64,000 bases of DNA from Limnochordaceae bacterium (GTDB lineage Bacteria > Bacillota > Limnochordia > Limnochordales > Geochordaceae): NCBI GenBank assembly GCA_014896295.1, contig JADBKR010000007.1, forward strand, positions 186,001 to 250,000, read 5' to 3'. The notes beneath the pieces were generated by a model, which was given only the letters and a program-made list of their open reading frames with translations, was not told the origin of the DNA and did no database searches. Positions 16,743 through 20,898 of this stretch are shown here, piece after piece. Numbering within the stretch: position 1 is the stretch's first letter; the number at the start of each line of letters is the position of its first letter. A program made the position numbers and the translations under genes.

Positions 16743-17399
16743 CTATCCCAGCATCTCGAGGAGATCCGCCGCTCTCAGCCCGAGGAAATCGGGCACGACC
16801 CGCCGCGCCCCCGCCTCCCGCAGCCGCTCGGCCGGCTCCGTGGTGGTCACCGCCAGGCAGACCCCGCCCGCCGCTACCGCCGCCCGCACCCCGGCGATGG
16901 AGTCCTCGACGATGACGGCCTGCGCCGGAGCGACCCCGAGCGCCCGGGCGGCCTTGAGAAAGATGGCGGGGTCGGGCTTGGCCGCCTCCACGTCCTGCCC
17001 GGTGATCACCGCGTCGAACGCCCCGTCGATGCCCAGGTGCCGCACGATGGCCGCCGCGTTCTCCGGCGGCCCCGAGGTCGCCAGCGCCAGCGGCACCCGG
17101 TGGCGGCGCAGGTCACGTACCAGGGCCTGCACGCCGGGTACGGGCTCGAGGGTGGCCACGAAACGTTCCCGGAAGAGGGCTTCCTTGCGCCGGGAGAGCG
17201 ACGCCTTCTCCTCCGGGGTGAAGCGCCCGGGGAACAGCGCCTCGAGGGCCTCTTCGTTCTTCCGGCCCGTGAACTCCCGGTGGAACATCTCCGCGGTGAT
17301 CACGACGCCGCTTTCCTCGCTGAACTCCTGCCATGCCCGGAAGTGGGCGGGGTTGCTGACGACCAGCACCCCGTCCATGTCGAAGATGACTGCTGGCAC
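16743..17399 (-). CDS. HAD-superfamily phosphatase (beta-phosphoglucomutase-like)
   Basis: 218-aa cytoplasmic haloacid-dehalogenase-type hydrolase. Motif I FDMDGVLV (catalytic Asp pair), motif II ATSGPP, motif III Lys in AAKPDPAIF and motif IV VEDSIAGVRAA are all intact. The cap-domain position after motif I puts it in the subfamily with beta-phosphoglucomutase and small sugar-phosphate phosphatases. GTG 17399 (GGAAAGGCGG upstream) is chosen since it begins VPAVIFDMDG. Single gene, closed by the terminator at 16693-16718. The sugar phosphate used cannot be predicted. Confidence 0.9.
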   Translation of the reverse strand: MPAVIFDMDGVLVVSNPAHFRAWQEFSEESGVVITAEMFHREFTGRKNEEALEALFPGRFTPEEKASLSRRKEALFRERFVATLEPVPGVQALVRDLRRHRVPLALATSGPPENAAAIVRHLGIDGAFDAVITGQDVEAAKPDPAIFLKAARALGVAPAQAVIVEDSIAGVRAAVAAGGVCLAVTTTEPAERLREAGARRVVPDFLGLRAADLLEMLG

Positions 17400-17494
17400 G
17401 CACGGGCCGCCTTTCCAAGGGACTTCGCCTGCATTGAACCACAACCGGCGGGTCGACGCCAAGGGCGGGAAGGGCTCCCTTCAGGAGAAGGGAA

Positions 17495-17544
17495 GGCGCG
17501 ACGGGCGGCATCCCCGTGGAAGGGATGTCGCCGCCCGCCGCGCC
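17495..17544 (-). terminator. Hairpin terminator after the LysM gene
   Basis: Long GC-rich inverted repeat (GGCGCG...GCGGCATCCC pairing with GGGATG...CGCGCC) starting 21 nt past the LysM stop; on the minus strand it is followed by a pyrimidine-rich CTTCCCTTCTCC stretch. Confidence 0.65.
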
Positions 17545-17565
17545 GCGATGCCGGGGACGATCGCC

Positions 17566-18119
17566 TCAGCGGCTCGGTACGCAGATGACCTGCCCGGGGA
17601 AGATGAGGTCCGGGTTGGTGATCTGCGGGTTGAGGGCCAGGATCGCGGTGACCGTCGTGCCGAAGCGTTGCGCGATGAAAAACAGCGTATCGCCGGGCTG
17701 CACCGTGTAAGCCGTGGATCCGGGCGGGCATATGCCGGGCGGCAGGCGCCGACGGCACACAGATCACCTGGCCCGGGAAAATGAGGCTGGGGTTGGTGAT
17801 CTGAGGGTTGAGGGCCAGGATGGCGTTGACCGTCGTGCCGAAGCGCTGCGCGATGAAGAAGCAGCGTATCGCCGGGCTGCACCGTGTAAGCCGTGGATCC
17901 GGGCGGGCATATGCCGGGCGGCGCCGCCGACGGCACACAGATCACCTGGCCCGGGAAAATGAGGCTGGGGTTGGTGATCTGAGGGTTGAGGGCCAGGATG
18001 GCGTTGACCGTCGTGCCGAAGCGCTGCGCGATGAAGAACAGCGTGTCCCCCGGCTGGACCGTGTACGGGGTGGAGCCCGCCGGGCAGATCGAGGAGAAGG
18101 CGATGGGCTGTCCTGACAA
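17566..18119 (-). CDS. Three-repeat LysM protein, two frameshifts
   Basis: Protein made of an N-terminal MSGQPIAF and three almost identical 59-residue LysM units, each YTVQPGDTLFFIAQRFGT then ILALNPQITNP and FPGQVICVPS, joined by CPPGSTA linkers. LysM binds peptidoglycan or chitin-like glycans; in spore formers such proteins also sit in the spore coat or cortex (family knowledge). TTG 18119 has AAGGGAG ten bases upstream. No signal peptide is seen, which favours a spore-associated rather than secreted role. Each inter-unit distance is 178 nt instead of 177, so one extra base occurs in each of two units (near 17861 and 17744), breaking the frame. Confidence 0.8.
17583..18085. repeat. Three tandem 177-bp LysM-coding repeats
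   Basis: Units begin at about 17583, 17761 and 17939. The two on the right are nearly base-identical and the left one differs at only a few positions, so the duplication is recent or kept uniform by recombination. Two 1-nt insertions distinguish copies. Confidence 0.85.
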
Positions 18120-18248
18120 GCCGTGTCGCTCCCTTCCCACGAGGGTTCAGCAGCGTGGTCAGGGTATGACGCGCGTCCCTGATGCGTGCCGCAAGGATGC
18201 GTCCGGCGACCCCGTTCCTGGGGAAGGCCAGCCGCCCGGTCGCTGCCC

Positions 18249-18278
18249 TTGACGCCGGGGGTGCCGGCCCCCGATACT
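18249..18278 (+). promoter_or_regulatory. Promoter of the thiamine operon
   Basis: -35 TTGACG (18249-18254), 18-nt spacer, -10 GATACT (18273-18278). The predicted start of transcription near 18285 falls just before the riboswitch. The spacer contains a GC-rich inverted repeat (GCCGGGGGTGCCGGC). Confidence 0.6.
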
Positions 18279-18295
18279 TTCAGCGGGATGACGTG

Positions 18296-18388
18296 GCCCT
18301 GGGGGAGTCCCTTCGGGGACTGAGAGGACGGCCCCGTCGCCGTCGACCCCTCGAACCTGATCTGGGTCATACCAGCGAAGGGAAGGGC
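18296..18388 (+). promoter_or_regulatory. TPP riboswitch (THI element)
   Basis: Contains the conserved THI-box blocks in order: GGGGGAGTCC, GGACTGAGAGG, ACCCCTCGAACCTGATCTGG and GTCATACCAGCGAAGGGAA. The 5' GCCCT (18296-18300) can pair with AGGGC (18384-18388) as helix P1. The Shine-Dalgarno GGGAAGGG of the following gene (ATG 18393) is inside the 3' strand of P1, so TPP binding should hide it: translational repression. This puts the three genes downstream under thiamine control. Confidence 0.95.
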
Positions 18389-18392
18389 TCTC

Positions 18393-19115
18393 ATGAGCGA
18401 ACGGCATCTGCTGGCCCCGCCCGCCGCCTCGAGGCCGGCGCGCCCCTGGTACACCCGCCCCGAGCTCGTCGAACGCTACGAGTCGTGGTACGAAGGCCCC
18501 ACCGGCATCCGCATGGACCGCCAGGAAAAGGCGGTGCTCCGCCGGATGCTGGACGAGGCAGGCTGGCTCGGGCCACGAGCCCGCCTCCTGGAAGTGGGAG
18601 CCGGCACGGGGCACTTCACCCGCTGGCTGAAGGGGCTGGCCGGCCGGGTCGTCGGGGTCGACCTGTCGCCCCTCATGCTCCGCAAGGCCCGGGAGCTCGG
18701 CACGACCGGCCTGGTCGGGGGCGACGCCGCGAGGCTTCCTTTTGCGAGCGGCTCGTTCGACGCCGCCGTCCTCGTCGCCTGCTTCGAGTACATGCCGCAT
18801 CCGGTCCGGGTGCTGCAGGAAGTGGCCCGGGTGGCCCGCTGCGGCCTCGTCCTCGGCCTGATGAACCGCCGCAGCGTCGCCGGCGTCCGGCGGCGCCTCC
18901 AGGTCGCCCTGGGCCGCAACGACTTTTTCGAAGGCGCGCACCTGTACACACTCGGAGAGATCCGCCGGTTGGCCCGGGAGGCGTTCGGGGGGCACGCCCG
19001 GCTCGCCTGGCGCTTCACCCTCTATCCCCCCGGCATTCCGGTCGCTTCGTCGCCGGTGGGCGGCGGCTCGTTTCTCGCCGTCCGCGTCGAGTTGCCCGGC
19101 AGCTCCAGGAGGTGA
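18393..19115 (+). CDS. Class I SAM-dependent methyltransferase in the TPP-riboswitch operon
   Basis: 240-aa cytoplasmic methyltransferase of the Methyltransf_11 type. Motif I LLEVGAGTGHFTRWL, motif II VGVDLSPLMLRKAREL, motif III GGDAARLPFASGSFDAAVLV; C-terminal part variable. ATG 18393 is four bases beyond the riboswitch. It is the first gene of a thiamine-controlled operon (next: AIR-synthase-like, then thiE), so a role in thiamine or precursor metabolism, or in modifying a thiamine-pathway compound, is suggested but not shown by the sequence. Confidence 0.9.
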   Translation: MSERHLLAPPAASRPARPWYTRPELVERYESWYEGPTGIRMDRQEKAVLRRMLDEAGWLGPRARLLEVGAGTGHFTRWLKGLAGRVVGVDLSPLMLRKARELGTTGLVGGDAARLPFASGSFDAAVLVACFEYMPHPVRVLQEVARVARCGLVLGLMNRRSVAGVRRRLQVALGRNDFFEGAHLYTLGEIRRLAREAFGGHARLAWRFTLYPPGIPVASSPVGGGSFLAVRVELPGSSRR

Positions 19116-19120
19116 AGGCC

Positions 19121-20188
19121 GTGGCCGCTCCGCCTCTCGGCAAGCTCAGCCGCCAGGCTTTTGACGCGCTCATCGCCCCTCACCTCGGCGCCGCTCGCCC
19201 CGGCCAGGTGCTGGTGGGGCCGCGCCACGGGGTGGACGTGGCCATCCTGCGAACCGCGCCCGGGCAGGTCATGGCCGTGACCGCCGACCCGCTCTCCCTC
19301 ATCCCCGAACTCGGCGTGGAGGCGTCCGCGTGGCTGTCGGCGCAGCTGCTTGCCTCGGACGTGGCGACGAGCGGGCTCGAGCCCGCCTTCGCGGTCGTCG
19401 ACTACAACCTGCCCCCGCAGATGGACGACGAGACCCTCGCGCGCTACCAACAGGCGCTCCACCGGGCGCTGGCCGACCTCGGGGTGGCCGTGGTGGGCGG
19501 CCACACCGGGCGCTACCCGGGGTGCGACTACACCATCATCGGCGCCGGCGTGATGATGGCCACGGGGCCGGAGGACCGGTGGGTCTGCTCGGCGACCGCG
19601 CGCCCGGGCGACGCCTGTGTGGTCACGAAGGGAGCGGCAGTGGCCGCCACCGGCATCCTGGCCCGCGTCTTTCCGGAGACCGCCCGGCGGGTCCTGGGCG
19701 ACGAGGGCGCGCGGGAGGCGGCCGCGGTCTTCGGGCAGTTCGGCGTGGTCAAGGAGGCTCGCCTTGCCGCCGCTCTTGGAGTGCGAAGCGGCGGCGTCTC
19801 GGCCATGCACGACGCGACGGAGGGCGGCGTATTGGGTGCCATCGCCGAGATGGCCGAGGCCTCCGGGCTCGGGGCCGTCGTCGAGCGCGAGGCCATTCCT
19901 GTGAGCCCCGTCACCCGGGAGCTGTGCCGCGCCTTTTTCGGGATGGATCCCTACACGGCGCTGGGAGAAGGGGCACTCGTGCTGGCCGTCGACCCGGCCC
20001 GGGCTGCCGAGCTGCAGGCGCGCCTCGGAGCCGAAGGGATCAGGGCGGCCATCGTCGGGCGGTTCGAGGCGCCCGGGCACGGCCGTTGGGTCGTCGAGCC
20101 GGACGGGCGCAAGACGCTCCTGGCCCCGCCTGCCGCTGACCCCTATTGGGCGGCGTACGCCCGCGCCCGGGAGAGTGGTTGGCGTTGA
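19121..20188 (+). CDS. AIR-synthase-superfamily protein (ThiL/HypE-like)
   Basis: 355-aa member of the PurM/AIRS superfamily, the ATP-binding fold of ThiL, HypE, PurM and SelD. Features: GPRHGVDVAILR near the N terminus, TADPLSLIP (in place of the ThiL KTDxxVE), LLASDVATSGLEP, AVVGGHTGRYPG and SAMHDATEGGVLGAI. These resemble the HypE-like branch more than canonical ThiL. GTG 19121 has AGGAGG seven bases upstream within the end of the methyltransferase gene. Because thiE follows, it may take the place of thiamine-monophosphate kinase; a kinase on another substrate is the alternative. Confidence 0.8.
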   Translation: MAAPPLGKLSRQAFDALIAPHLGAARPGQVLVGPRHGVDVAILRTAPGQVMAVTADPLSLIPELGVEASAWLSAQLLASDVATSGLEPAFAVVDYNLPPQMDDETLARYQQALHRALADLGVAVVGGHTGRYPGCDYTIIGAGVMMATGPEDRWVCSATARPGDACVVTKGAAVAATGILARVFPETARRVLGDEGAREAAAVFGQFGVVKEARLAAALGVRSGGVSAMHDATEGGVLGAIAEMAEASGLGAVVEREAIPVSPVTRELCRAFFGMDPYTALGEGALVLAVDPARAAELQARLGAEGIRAAIVGRFEAPGHGRWVVEPDGRKTLLAPPAADPYWAAYARARESGWR

Positions 20189-20898
20189 CCCGCCTCGGAG
20201 GGCTGTATCTCGTCGTCGACCCGGGCCTCGCCGCCGGCCCGTGGGGCGTGGAGGGAGTGCTGCAACGAGTCGGCCGGGCGCTGGCAGGGGGCGTCGACCT
20301 CGTCCAGTTGTGGGCGCCGTCGTCCGAAAACGCGGCGGCATCCCTCTCGCCGGAGCAGGCCCTGCGCCTCGCCACGGGCTTGCGGGCTCTCACCCTCGAG
20401 GCCGGGGTGCCGCTGCTCATCGGGGAGGACGTGCGGCTCGCCGCCCGCCTCGGTGCCGACGGCGTGCACCTGGAGGGCAACGCGCCTGCGCCGGCAGAGG
20501 TGCGGTCTGCCTTCGCTCCCCGGCTCGCCCGCCTCCAGGGCCGTGGGGCCCTGGTCGGTTACACGTGCGGCAACGACCTCGAGAAAGTGCGATGGGCTTC
20601 CAGGGCCGGTGCGGACTACGTCTCGTTCTGCTCGGTGTTTCCCACGACGTCGGCCGTGTCGTGCGAGCTCGTTCCCCTGGCCTCGGTGCGGGCGGCGAGG
20701 GCGCTCGAGCCCGATCTCGTGCTGTTCGCCTCGGGAGGCATCACGCCCGGCAACGCAGGGGACGTCCTGGACGCCGGTGCCGACGGGATCGCCGTGGTTT
20801 CGGCGGTGCTCAAGGCGCCCGACCCGCAGCAGGCGGCCCGGGACTTCCAGGAGCTGCTGCGACGCCGGGGGCGACACCGCTCGGGTTGCGCCGTCTGA
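20185..20898 (+). CDS. thiE: Thiamine-phosphate synthase
   Basis: 237-aa TIM-barrel enzyme joining HMP-PP and thiazole phosphate to thiamine phosphate. Motifs: GLYLVVDPGL, LALAGGVDLVQLWAPSSE (normally VQLR-K), PLLIGEDVRLAARLGADGVHLEG, GYTCGNDLEKVRWASRAGADYVSF and FASGGITPGNAGDVLDAGADGIAVVSAVL. TTG 20185 overlaps the previous stop as TTGA with GGGAGAG nine bases before. The substrate-loop R/K of QLR is W here (VQLW), a deviation worth noting. Last gene of the TPP operon; no thiC, thiD or thiM follows. Confidence 0.88.
   Translation: MTRLGGLYLVVDPGLAAGPWGVEGVLQRVGRALAGGVDLVQLWAPSSENAAASLSPEQALRLATGLRALTLEAGVPLLIGEDVRLAARLGADGVHLEGNAPAPAEVRSAFAPRLARLQGRGALVGYTCGNDLEKVRWASRAGADYVSFCSVFPTTSAVSCELVPLASVRAARALEPDLVLFASGGITPGNAGDVLDAGADGIAVVSAVLKAPDPQQAARDFQELLRRRGRHRSGCAV

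Follow-up and report, generated by a model that had tools for sequence, protein, structure and literature searches.

Operon organization in the window

We analyzed a 64-kb stretch (the window) of contig JADBKR010000007.1 from a Limnochordaceae bacterium, in which a thiamine pyrophosphate (TPP) riboswitch is followed by three genes. They encode a class I S-adenosylmethionine (SAM) methyltransferase (MT), a PurM-superfamily protein referred to as AIRS, and a divergent homologue of thiamine phosphate synthase referred to as ThiE*. Riboswitch and genes are packed as one operon (Table 1). The AIRS frame has two possible GTG starts, the first of which overlaps the stop codon of MT, and the TTG start of ThiE* overlaps the stop codon of AIRS. 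The aptamer exceeds the RF00059 gathering score of 54.3 bits and is the sole Rfam match across the window. In the cmscan alignment, its P1 helix pairs GCCCU (18296-18300) with AGGGC; a single-sequence fold also yields this helix, with an ordinary total energy (z -0.51). The 3' strand of P1 overlaps the likely Shine-Dalgarno sequence of MT, whose ATG start lies four bases past the strand, and P1 would mask the ribosome site of MT. The preliminary description of this DNA, made from its letters, had named the riboswitch, this overlap and the methyltransferase, and it was right on all three.

Table 1. Features of the riboswitch operon and codons of the exchanged ThiE* residues, in window positions
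Feature	Position	Strand	Evidence or remark
TPP riboswitch aptamer, RF00059	18291-18400	+	cmscan 78.4 bits, E 8.7e-14
P1 3' strand, AGGGC	18384-18388	+	overlaps likely Shine-Dalgarno AAGGG (18383-18387, purine-rich); alignment, fold, sequence
MT, class I SAM methyltransferase, 240 amino acids	18393-19115	+	PF08241 74.3 bits, 1.2e-20
AIRS, PurM-superfamily protein	GTG 19112 or GTG 19121 to 20188	+	PF02769 1.7e-21, PF00586 1.1e-10
ThiE*, divergent thiamine-phosphate-synthase homologue	20185-20898 (TTG start)	+	PF02581 118.9 bits, 2e-34
Codon of Trp43, replacing the canonical Arg of the presumed diphosphate site	20311-20313	+	W in 12/12 ThiE*, R in 12/12 canonical
Codon of Cys128	20566-20568	+	C in 11/12 ThiE* (V in L076), 0/12 canonical
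Codon of Cys149, barrel-strand end	20629-20631	+	C in 12/12 ThiE*, 0/12 canonical; modelled strand E145-149
Codon of Ala157, replacing Lys159	20653-20655	+	V/A in 12/12 ThiE*, K in 12/12 canonical
Codon of Cys160	20662-20664	+	C in 12/12 ThiE*, 0/12 canonical

A ThiE subfamily paired with a methyltransferase

ThiE* falls below the curated ThiE cut-off (TIGR00693, 120.8 vs 145.1 bits), as do most of its counterparts at other loci, and far below that of TenI (PRK07695, 57.6 vs 251). Its predicted structure has a pLDDT (predicted local distance difference test) of 90.2, and the best PDB matches are ThiE. We compared 12 ThiE* sequences with 12 of the 23 ordinary ThiE sequences. Canonical Arg59, present in all 12 ordinary sequences, is Trp in all 12 ThiE*, and Lys159, which was positioned via the K159A entry 3o16, is Val or Ala. 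We take this Arg and Lys159 to form the diphosphate-binding site of ordinary ThiE. Gly97 has become Asp or Glu, the Pro after Lys159 is lost, and Cys residues are gained at three positions. The GGI motif and Ser206, presumably the residues that bind thiazole phosphate, are retained in 12/12 ThiE*. The invariance of these residues in five phyla makes the site look rebuilt rather than decayed.

Twelve loci (the window, L022-L028, L068, L071, L072, and L076) fit a ThiE* profile better than the ordinary ThiE model, and 23 score higher with the latter. MT is present in exactly these 12 loci, and the loci with canonical ThiE lack it. MT and ThiE* are an obligate pair, co-occurring in 12/12 loci from five phyla, and ThiE* is a distinct ThiE subfamily. 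The MT itself satisfies PF08241 (cut-off 21.2 bits), carries the SAM-binding glycine motif LEVGAGTG, and lies below the cut-off of the DVU_1556 methyltransferase model (NF045667, 56.5 vs 155). With E values up to 1e-3, an ortholog profile matched the 12 trio loci and no other among the 81 searched. The frame at L075:2041 was considered as a further ThiE homologue and rejected, as it appears to be spurious. A small Trm112-like zinc protein is encoded downstream of AIRS or of the trio in five loci, by Pfam match in L034 and L072 and by tblastn in L068, L071, and L076.

The order MT-AIRS-ThiE, whose conservation the preliminary description had proposed to examine, recurs in 11 further loci from Bipolaricaulota, Kryptonia, Bacteroidota, and one gammaproteobacterial bin; two of the organisms are named isolates, Nafulsella turpanensis and Paraflavitalea pollutisoli. 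In Rfam scans of eight other trio loci, a TPP riboswitch is over cut-off in seven, all except L022; a pattern search finds one at L025 and L027, and L024 has none. At the head of the Bipolaricaulota operon is an ATP-binding cassette (ABC) importer with an NMT1/THI5-like binding protein. In the phylum of the window the trio is rare, since among 398 sampled genomes only the window genome and a second genome of its species fall in the ThiE* score range, with 268 and 265 bits, and the next best has 149.5.

Gene content was examined in nine other trio genomes (L024 was left out, and L027 belongs to the same assembly as L023). ThiD is over cut-off in none of the nine, vs 19/24 AIRS genomes with ordinary ThiE (Fisher p 5e-5, uncorrected for kinship). 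Neither ThiC nor ThiM was found in the nine, no ThiG was counted, and TPK occurs in one. ThiL is over cut-off in eight of them, and in two pieces in the ninth.

Thiamine context of the AIRS family

The preliminary description placed AIRS in the PurM superfamily, which holds, and closer to HypE than to ThiL, on which the evidence is split. The NCBIfam models rank ThiL (TIGR01379, 83.6 bits) above HypE (TIGR02124, 56.3 bits), both far below their cut-offs of 184.15 and 251.6 bits. A 60-sequence AIRS profile run against PDB sequences favors HypE (109.7 vs 56.3 for ThiL), and a fold search returns matches to the two interleaved. The predicted AIRS structure has a pLDDT of 95.2. The protein ends in ESGWR, without the Cys end of HypE. 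It matches neither PF04263 nor PF02110 (ThiM), and the latter is absent from all three operon proteins.

Scanning the contigs of 84,980 genomes gave 488 AIRS relatives, of which the best 80 loci were read. The family spans bacteria and archaea. A thiamine link, defined as a riboswitch upstream, ThiE, ThiN or ThiD beside, or ThiT directly upstream, is seen in 57/80 loci; the earlier statement that neither of the first two genes is standard in thiamine operons thus does not hold for AIRS. The pattern search detects a same-strand riboswitch ahead of AIRS in 34 loci and matches at other positions in three loci; it misses some, such as that of L071, found by Rfam alone and counted among the 57. ThiE lies beside AIRS in 34/80 loci. 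ThiT (PF09515, 2e-45) is directly upstream of AIRS in two archaeal loci, L034 and L039. In Bathyarchaeota the order is riboswitch, a membrane protein resembling an energy-coupling factor (ECF) S component, and AIRS; reading that membrane protein as a divergent methyltransferase or ThiE was rejected. In a Bacillota bin, a TPP riboswitch precedes an AIRS-ThiN-isochorismatase-like fusion (L091:375-2838). Haloarchaea have a second AIRS gene ahead of AIRS and ThiD-ThiN after it (order read in L087), and tblastn finds the adjacent AIRS-like pair in six loci (L083, L086, L087, L090, L093, and L101). In a quick tree of 60 family sequences and five further PurM-superfamily proteins, with long outgroup branches, the trio and transporter-linked AIRS form one 24-row group (Shimodaira-Hasegawa approximate likelihood ratio test, SH-aLRT, 99), separate from the AIRS beside ordinary ThiE. 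A full-text search, read as titles and abstract openings and covering subscription literature in part, returned no publication tying the family to thiamine, which does not imply absence from print.

We then counted thiamine genes in 50 other AIRS genomes, chosen for diversity from 68 (n = 51 with the window genome). Canonical ThiL is over cut-off in 40/50; it is in two pieces in G036, 4 bits short in G047, fragmentary in G012, G017, and G019, and without a match in G022, G025, G026, G034, and G037. Among the 51, ThiD is over cut-off in 30, ThiN in 17, and ThiC in 11, a number too small for AIRS to act as a PurM that feeds ThiC, and this idea was rejected. ThiM occurs in 2/51, vs 7/14 controls. 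TPK matches occur in seven genomes and two were counted as real, the other five, that of the window genome included, spanning only about 35 of 113 positions. ThiG matches occur in 13, of which 10 were counted and three of about 35 bits dropped. ThiE-like proteins are found in 34, 25 of them over cut-off. Two genomes with ThiL and AIRS, G007 and G035, have no ThiE, ThiN, ThiD, ThiC, ThiG, ThiM, or TPK at the thresholds used, ThiK and Thi4 lying outside the search; G030 is alike except for a weak ThiM match. In G006, G008, and G023, the sole ThiN lies within frames of 318-350 amino acids, which presumably resemble the archaeal regulator ThiR.

The window genome (G000; 2.89 Mb, 97% complete) has three TPP riboswitches over cut-off and a fourth, weak one below it. 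Canonical thiL, for which the preliminary description had suggested a search, is present at C8:698056-699038 (L013), over cut-off with 189 bits for its first part and split over two frames. That thiL and the adjoining ABC ATPase gene each span two frames may reflect a sequencing error or a real frame change. The riboswitch after thiL precedes an ABC permease and ATPase resembling those of the Bipolaricaulota trio operons, and one riboswitch lies upstream of an NMT1-type binding protein. The weak one (C7:133720-133832, L015; 37.6 bits) has a large extra stem and directly precedes ThiT (PF09515, 3e-45). At the thresholds used, ThiC, ThiM, ThiG, and ThiN were not found, ThiD gives no more than a 47.5-bit match, far below its cut-off, and TPK no more than a 34-position piece in a 401-amino-acid frame. 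Because ThiT and ThiL are present and no full-length TPK is, imported thiamine needs a kinase in this genome. The genome also encodes other PurM relatives, namely the separate ThiL, a HypE-like protein that terminates in PRIC, and a third whose motifs, judged visually, resemble those of SelD.

A complete genome of the same species (G240) has riboswitch (77.7 bits, L133), AIRS, and ThiE* in the same order. The absence of thiC, thiD, and thiM noted in the preliminary description therefore stands for the window locus and, at these thresholds, for the window genome, but not for G240, which carries all three. They lie in a 10-kb region whose counterpart in the window genome is limited to three riboswitch matches and a single matching stretch of 37 bases; the region may have been lost there or may be absent through an assembly gap. 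As G240 has thiC and a ThiD-ThiM-ThiE fusion, the trio in this species comes in addition to these genes and does not replace them; the idea that MT replaces ThiD was accordingly dropped for the window's own species and retained only for other trio genomes.

Two features lie apart from these genes. Window positions 17300-18140, just upstream of the riboswitch and on the opposite strand, code for LysM repeats that are near-identical and fall in more than one frame, and a raiA RNA (RF03072, 113.9 bits) is found elsewhere in the window genome (L015:1698-1966, minus strand).

Candidate functions and known counterparts

The riboswitch-trio is very probably a vitamin B1 salvage operon, and genomic context bears out the salvage half of the earlier proposal of a variant thiamine-phosphate activation or salvage route. 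Judged by the operon anatomy, the riboswitch would expose the ribosome site of MT at low TPP, and the three coupled genes would be made. AIRS, an ATP-dependent enzyme by its ThiL/HypE/SelD/PurM fold, would phosphorylate the hydroxyethyl group of thiamine to give thiamine monophosphate (TMP), and possibly hydroxyethylthiazole as well; the separate canonical ThiL, whose gene is present, would then convert TMP to TPP. We infer this activity because AIRS and ThiL occur in some genomes that have none of the tested TMP-forming enzymes and no TPK, and AIRS is the natural candidate for making TMP from thiamine in draft genomes of the G007/G035 type. That AIRS is a kinase of thiamine or hydroxyethylthiazole is, judged by gene content, an even call. 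Since the thiazole-phosphate end of the ThiE site is preserved in ThiE* and the diphosphate end is not, the MT/ThiE* pair may deliver TMP from a pyrimidine donor whose activated form is other than the diphosphate, a possibility we hold as doubtful. The account as a whole, a TPP-repressed salvage operon with an AIRS kinase and an MT/ThiE* pair, is tentative and falls a little short of probable.

Several observations weigh against this account. No thiamine link is seen in 23/80 AIRS loci within the stretch examined, and the second AIRS gene of the window genome (C6:234404-235249; L018:7291-8310, minus strand) has neither a riboswitch nor a recognized thiamine neighbor; by eye, it adjoins an apparent alpha-glucan phosphorylase gene. 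G240 has riboswitch-ThiC and riboswitch-ThiD-ThiM-ThiE fusion units besides the trio. Kryptonium (G001) has TPK, and its trio is without a riboswitch. Residue conservation in AIRS does not reveal the substrate, and most genomes are draft or metagenome assemblies.

The rival that survives best, although it too is doubtful, regards ThiE* as a TenI-like or regulatory relic and MT as acting on an unrelated RNA, protein or lipid merely placed under TPP control. The sub-cut-off ThiE scores of ThiE* and most trio members agree with it, as does the Trm112-like protein, which follows the trio in four loci; known Trm112 relatives are partners of RNA and protein methyltransferases. Against it stand the strict MT/ThiE* pairing in five phyla and the invariance of the new residues, which is unlike decay, and TenI is a weaker match than ThiE in both sequence and structure. 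It is rather unlikely that AIRS is solely a hydroxyethylthiazole kinase that replaces ThiM and feeds ThiE or ThiN. The scarcity of ThiM in AIRS genomes, the ThiE or ThiN genes adjoining AIRS in many loci, and the preserved thiazole-phosphate side of ThiE* would suit such an enzyme, but it would be of no use in G007 and G035, where both ThiE and ThiN are missing, and it fits poorly with ThiT directly adjoining AIRS and with G240 carrying ThiM plus the trio.

A more specific version of the salvage account has methylation take the place of diphosphorylation in pyrimidine activation, so that TMP synthesis is independent of ThiD. It is proposed because trio genomes seem to need no more than a pyrimidine importer, MT, AIRS, ThiE*, and ThiL. 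MT would convert a donor, for example an aminomethyl or thioether form, to a cationic onium leaving group, and ThiE*, its once positively charged diphosphate pocket now lined by Trp, Asp/Glu, and Cys, would join the donor to thiazole phosphate from the AIRS kinase. We consider this improbable; should the imported compound be thiamine, AIRS plus ThiL would be enough and the MT/ThiE* pair would need another role.

A ThiL substitute, as which AIRS would be an alternative thiamine-phosphate kinase, is highly improbable. ThiL is the best NCBIfam model for AIRS, and its fold relatives include ThiL complexes, but the score is far below cut-off and canonical ThiL coexists with AIRS in the window genome and most trio genomes; the kinase half of the earlier proposal is unlikely because ThiL is over cut-off in 40/50 other AIRS genomes. 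The preliminary description had set a thiL elsewhere, combined with an unconserved gene order, against its own reading; the thiL was found, and the gene order is conserved. Equally remote is a PurM-like ring closure by AIRS on opened or damaged thiamine (the formyl-thiol form), with MT and ThiE* in other repair steps, for although the PurM-superfamily fold and a TPP-repressed operon would suit repair, the idea is argued purely by analogy and leaves the ThiT-AIRS operons, and the source of TMP from thiamine there, unexplained.

On the salvage account, two things are new: a candidate thiamine kinase in the broad AIRS family with its thiamine links, and the MT/ThiE* pair. AIRS offers a concrete candidate for the step from thiamine to TMP in bacteria and archaea where ThiL and a thiamine transporter occur without TPK. 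ThiE* is a textbook enzyme with a rebuilt-looking active site and an obligate methyltransferase partner, and the pair bears directly on the question of an alternative pyrimidine activation.

Among known systems, ThiL shares superfamily and overall fold with AIRS. They differ in that ThiL of a relative has GGN and AMLDVSDGL where AIRS has GGHTGRY and AMHDATEGG, and the two coexist. HypE is the top profile match among solved structures, but AIRS lacks the C-terminal PRIC in which the separate HypE-like protein of the window genome ends. The haloarchaeal "AIR synthase family protein" is 34-38% identical to AIRS in the alignment rows shown; on a Haloarcula plasmid it adjoins thiamine-binding and thiamine ABC transporter genes, with no MT or ThiE* annotated at that locus, and it also occurs on a Halobacterium plasmid without thiamine neighbors. 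ThiK and ThiM place the first phosphate onto a hydroxyethyl group, the reaction proposed for AIRS; the folds of the ThiK, TPK, and ThiM kinases are unrelated to that of AIRS. ThiE* has the barrel of ThiE (B. subtilis 1g4s/2tps family; TMq 0.80, 29% identity) and retains its Gln41, His95, GGI, and Ser206, and differs from it by the exchanges of Arg for Trp, Lys159 for Val/Ala, and Gly97 for Asp/Glu, and by the gained Cys128, Cys149, and Cys160.

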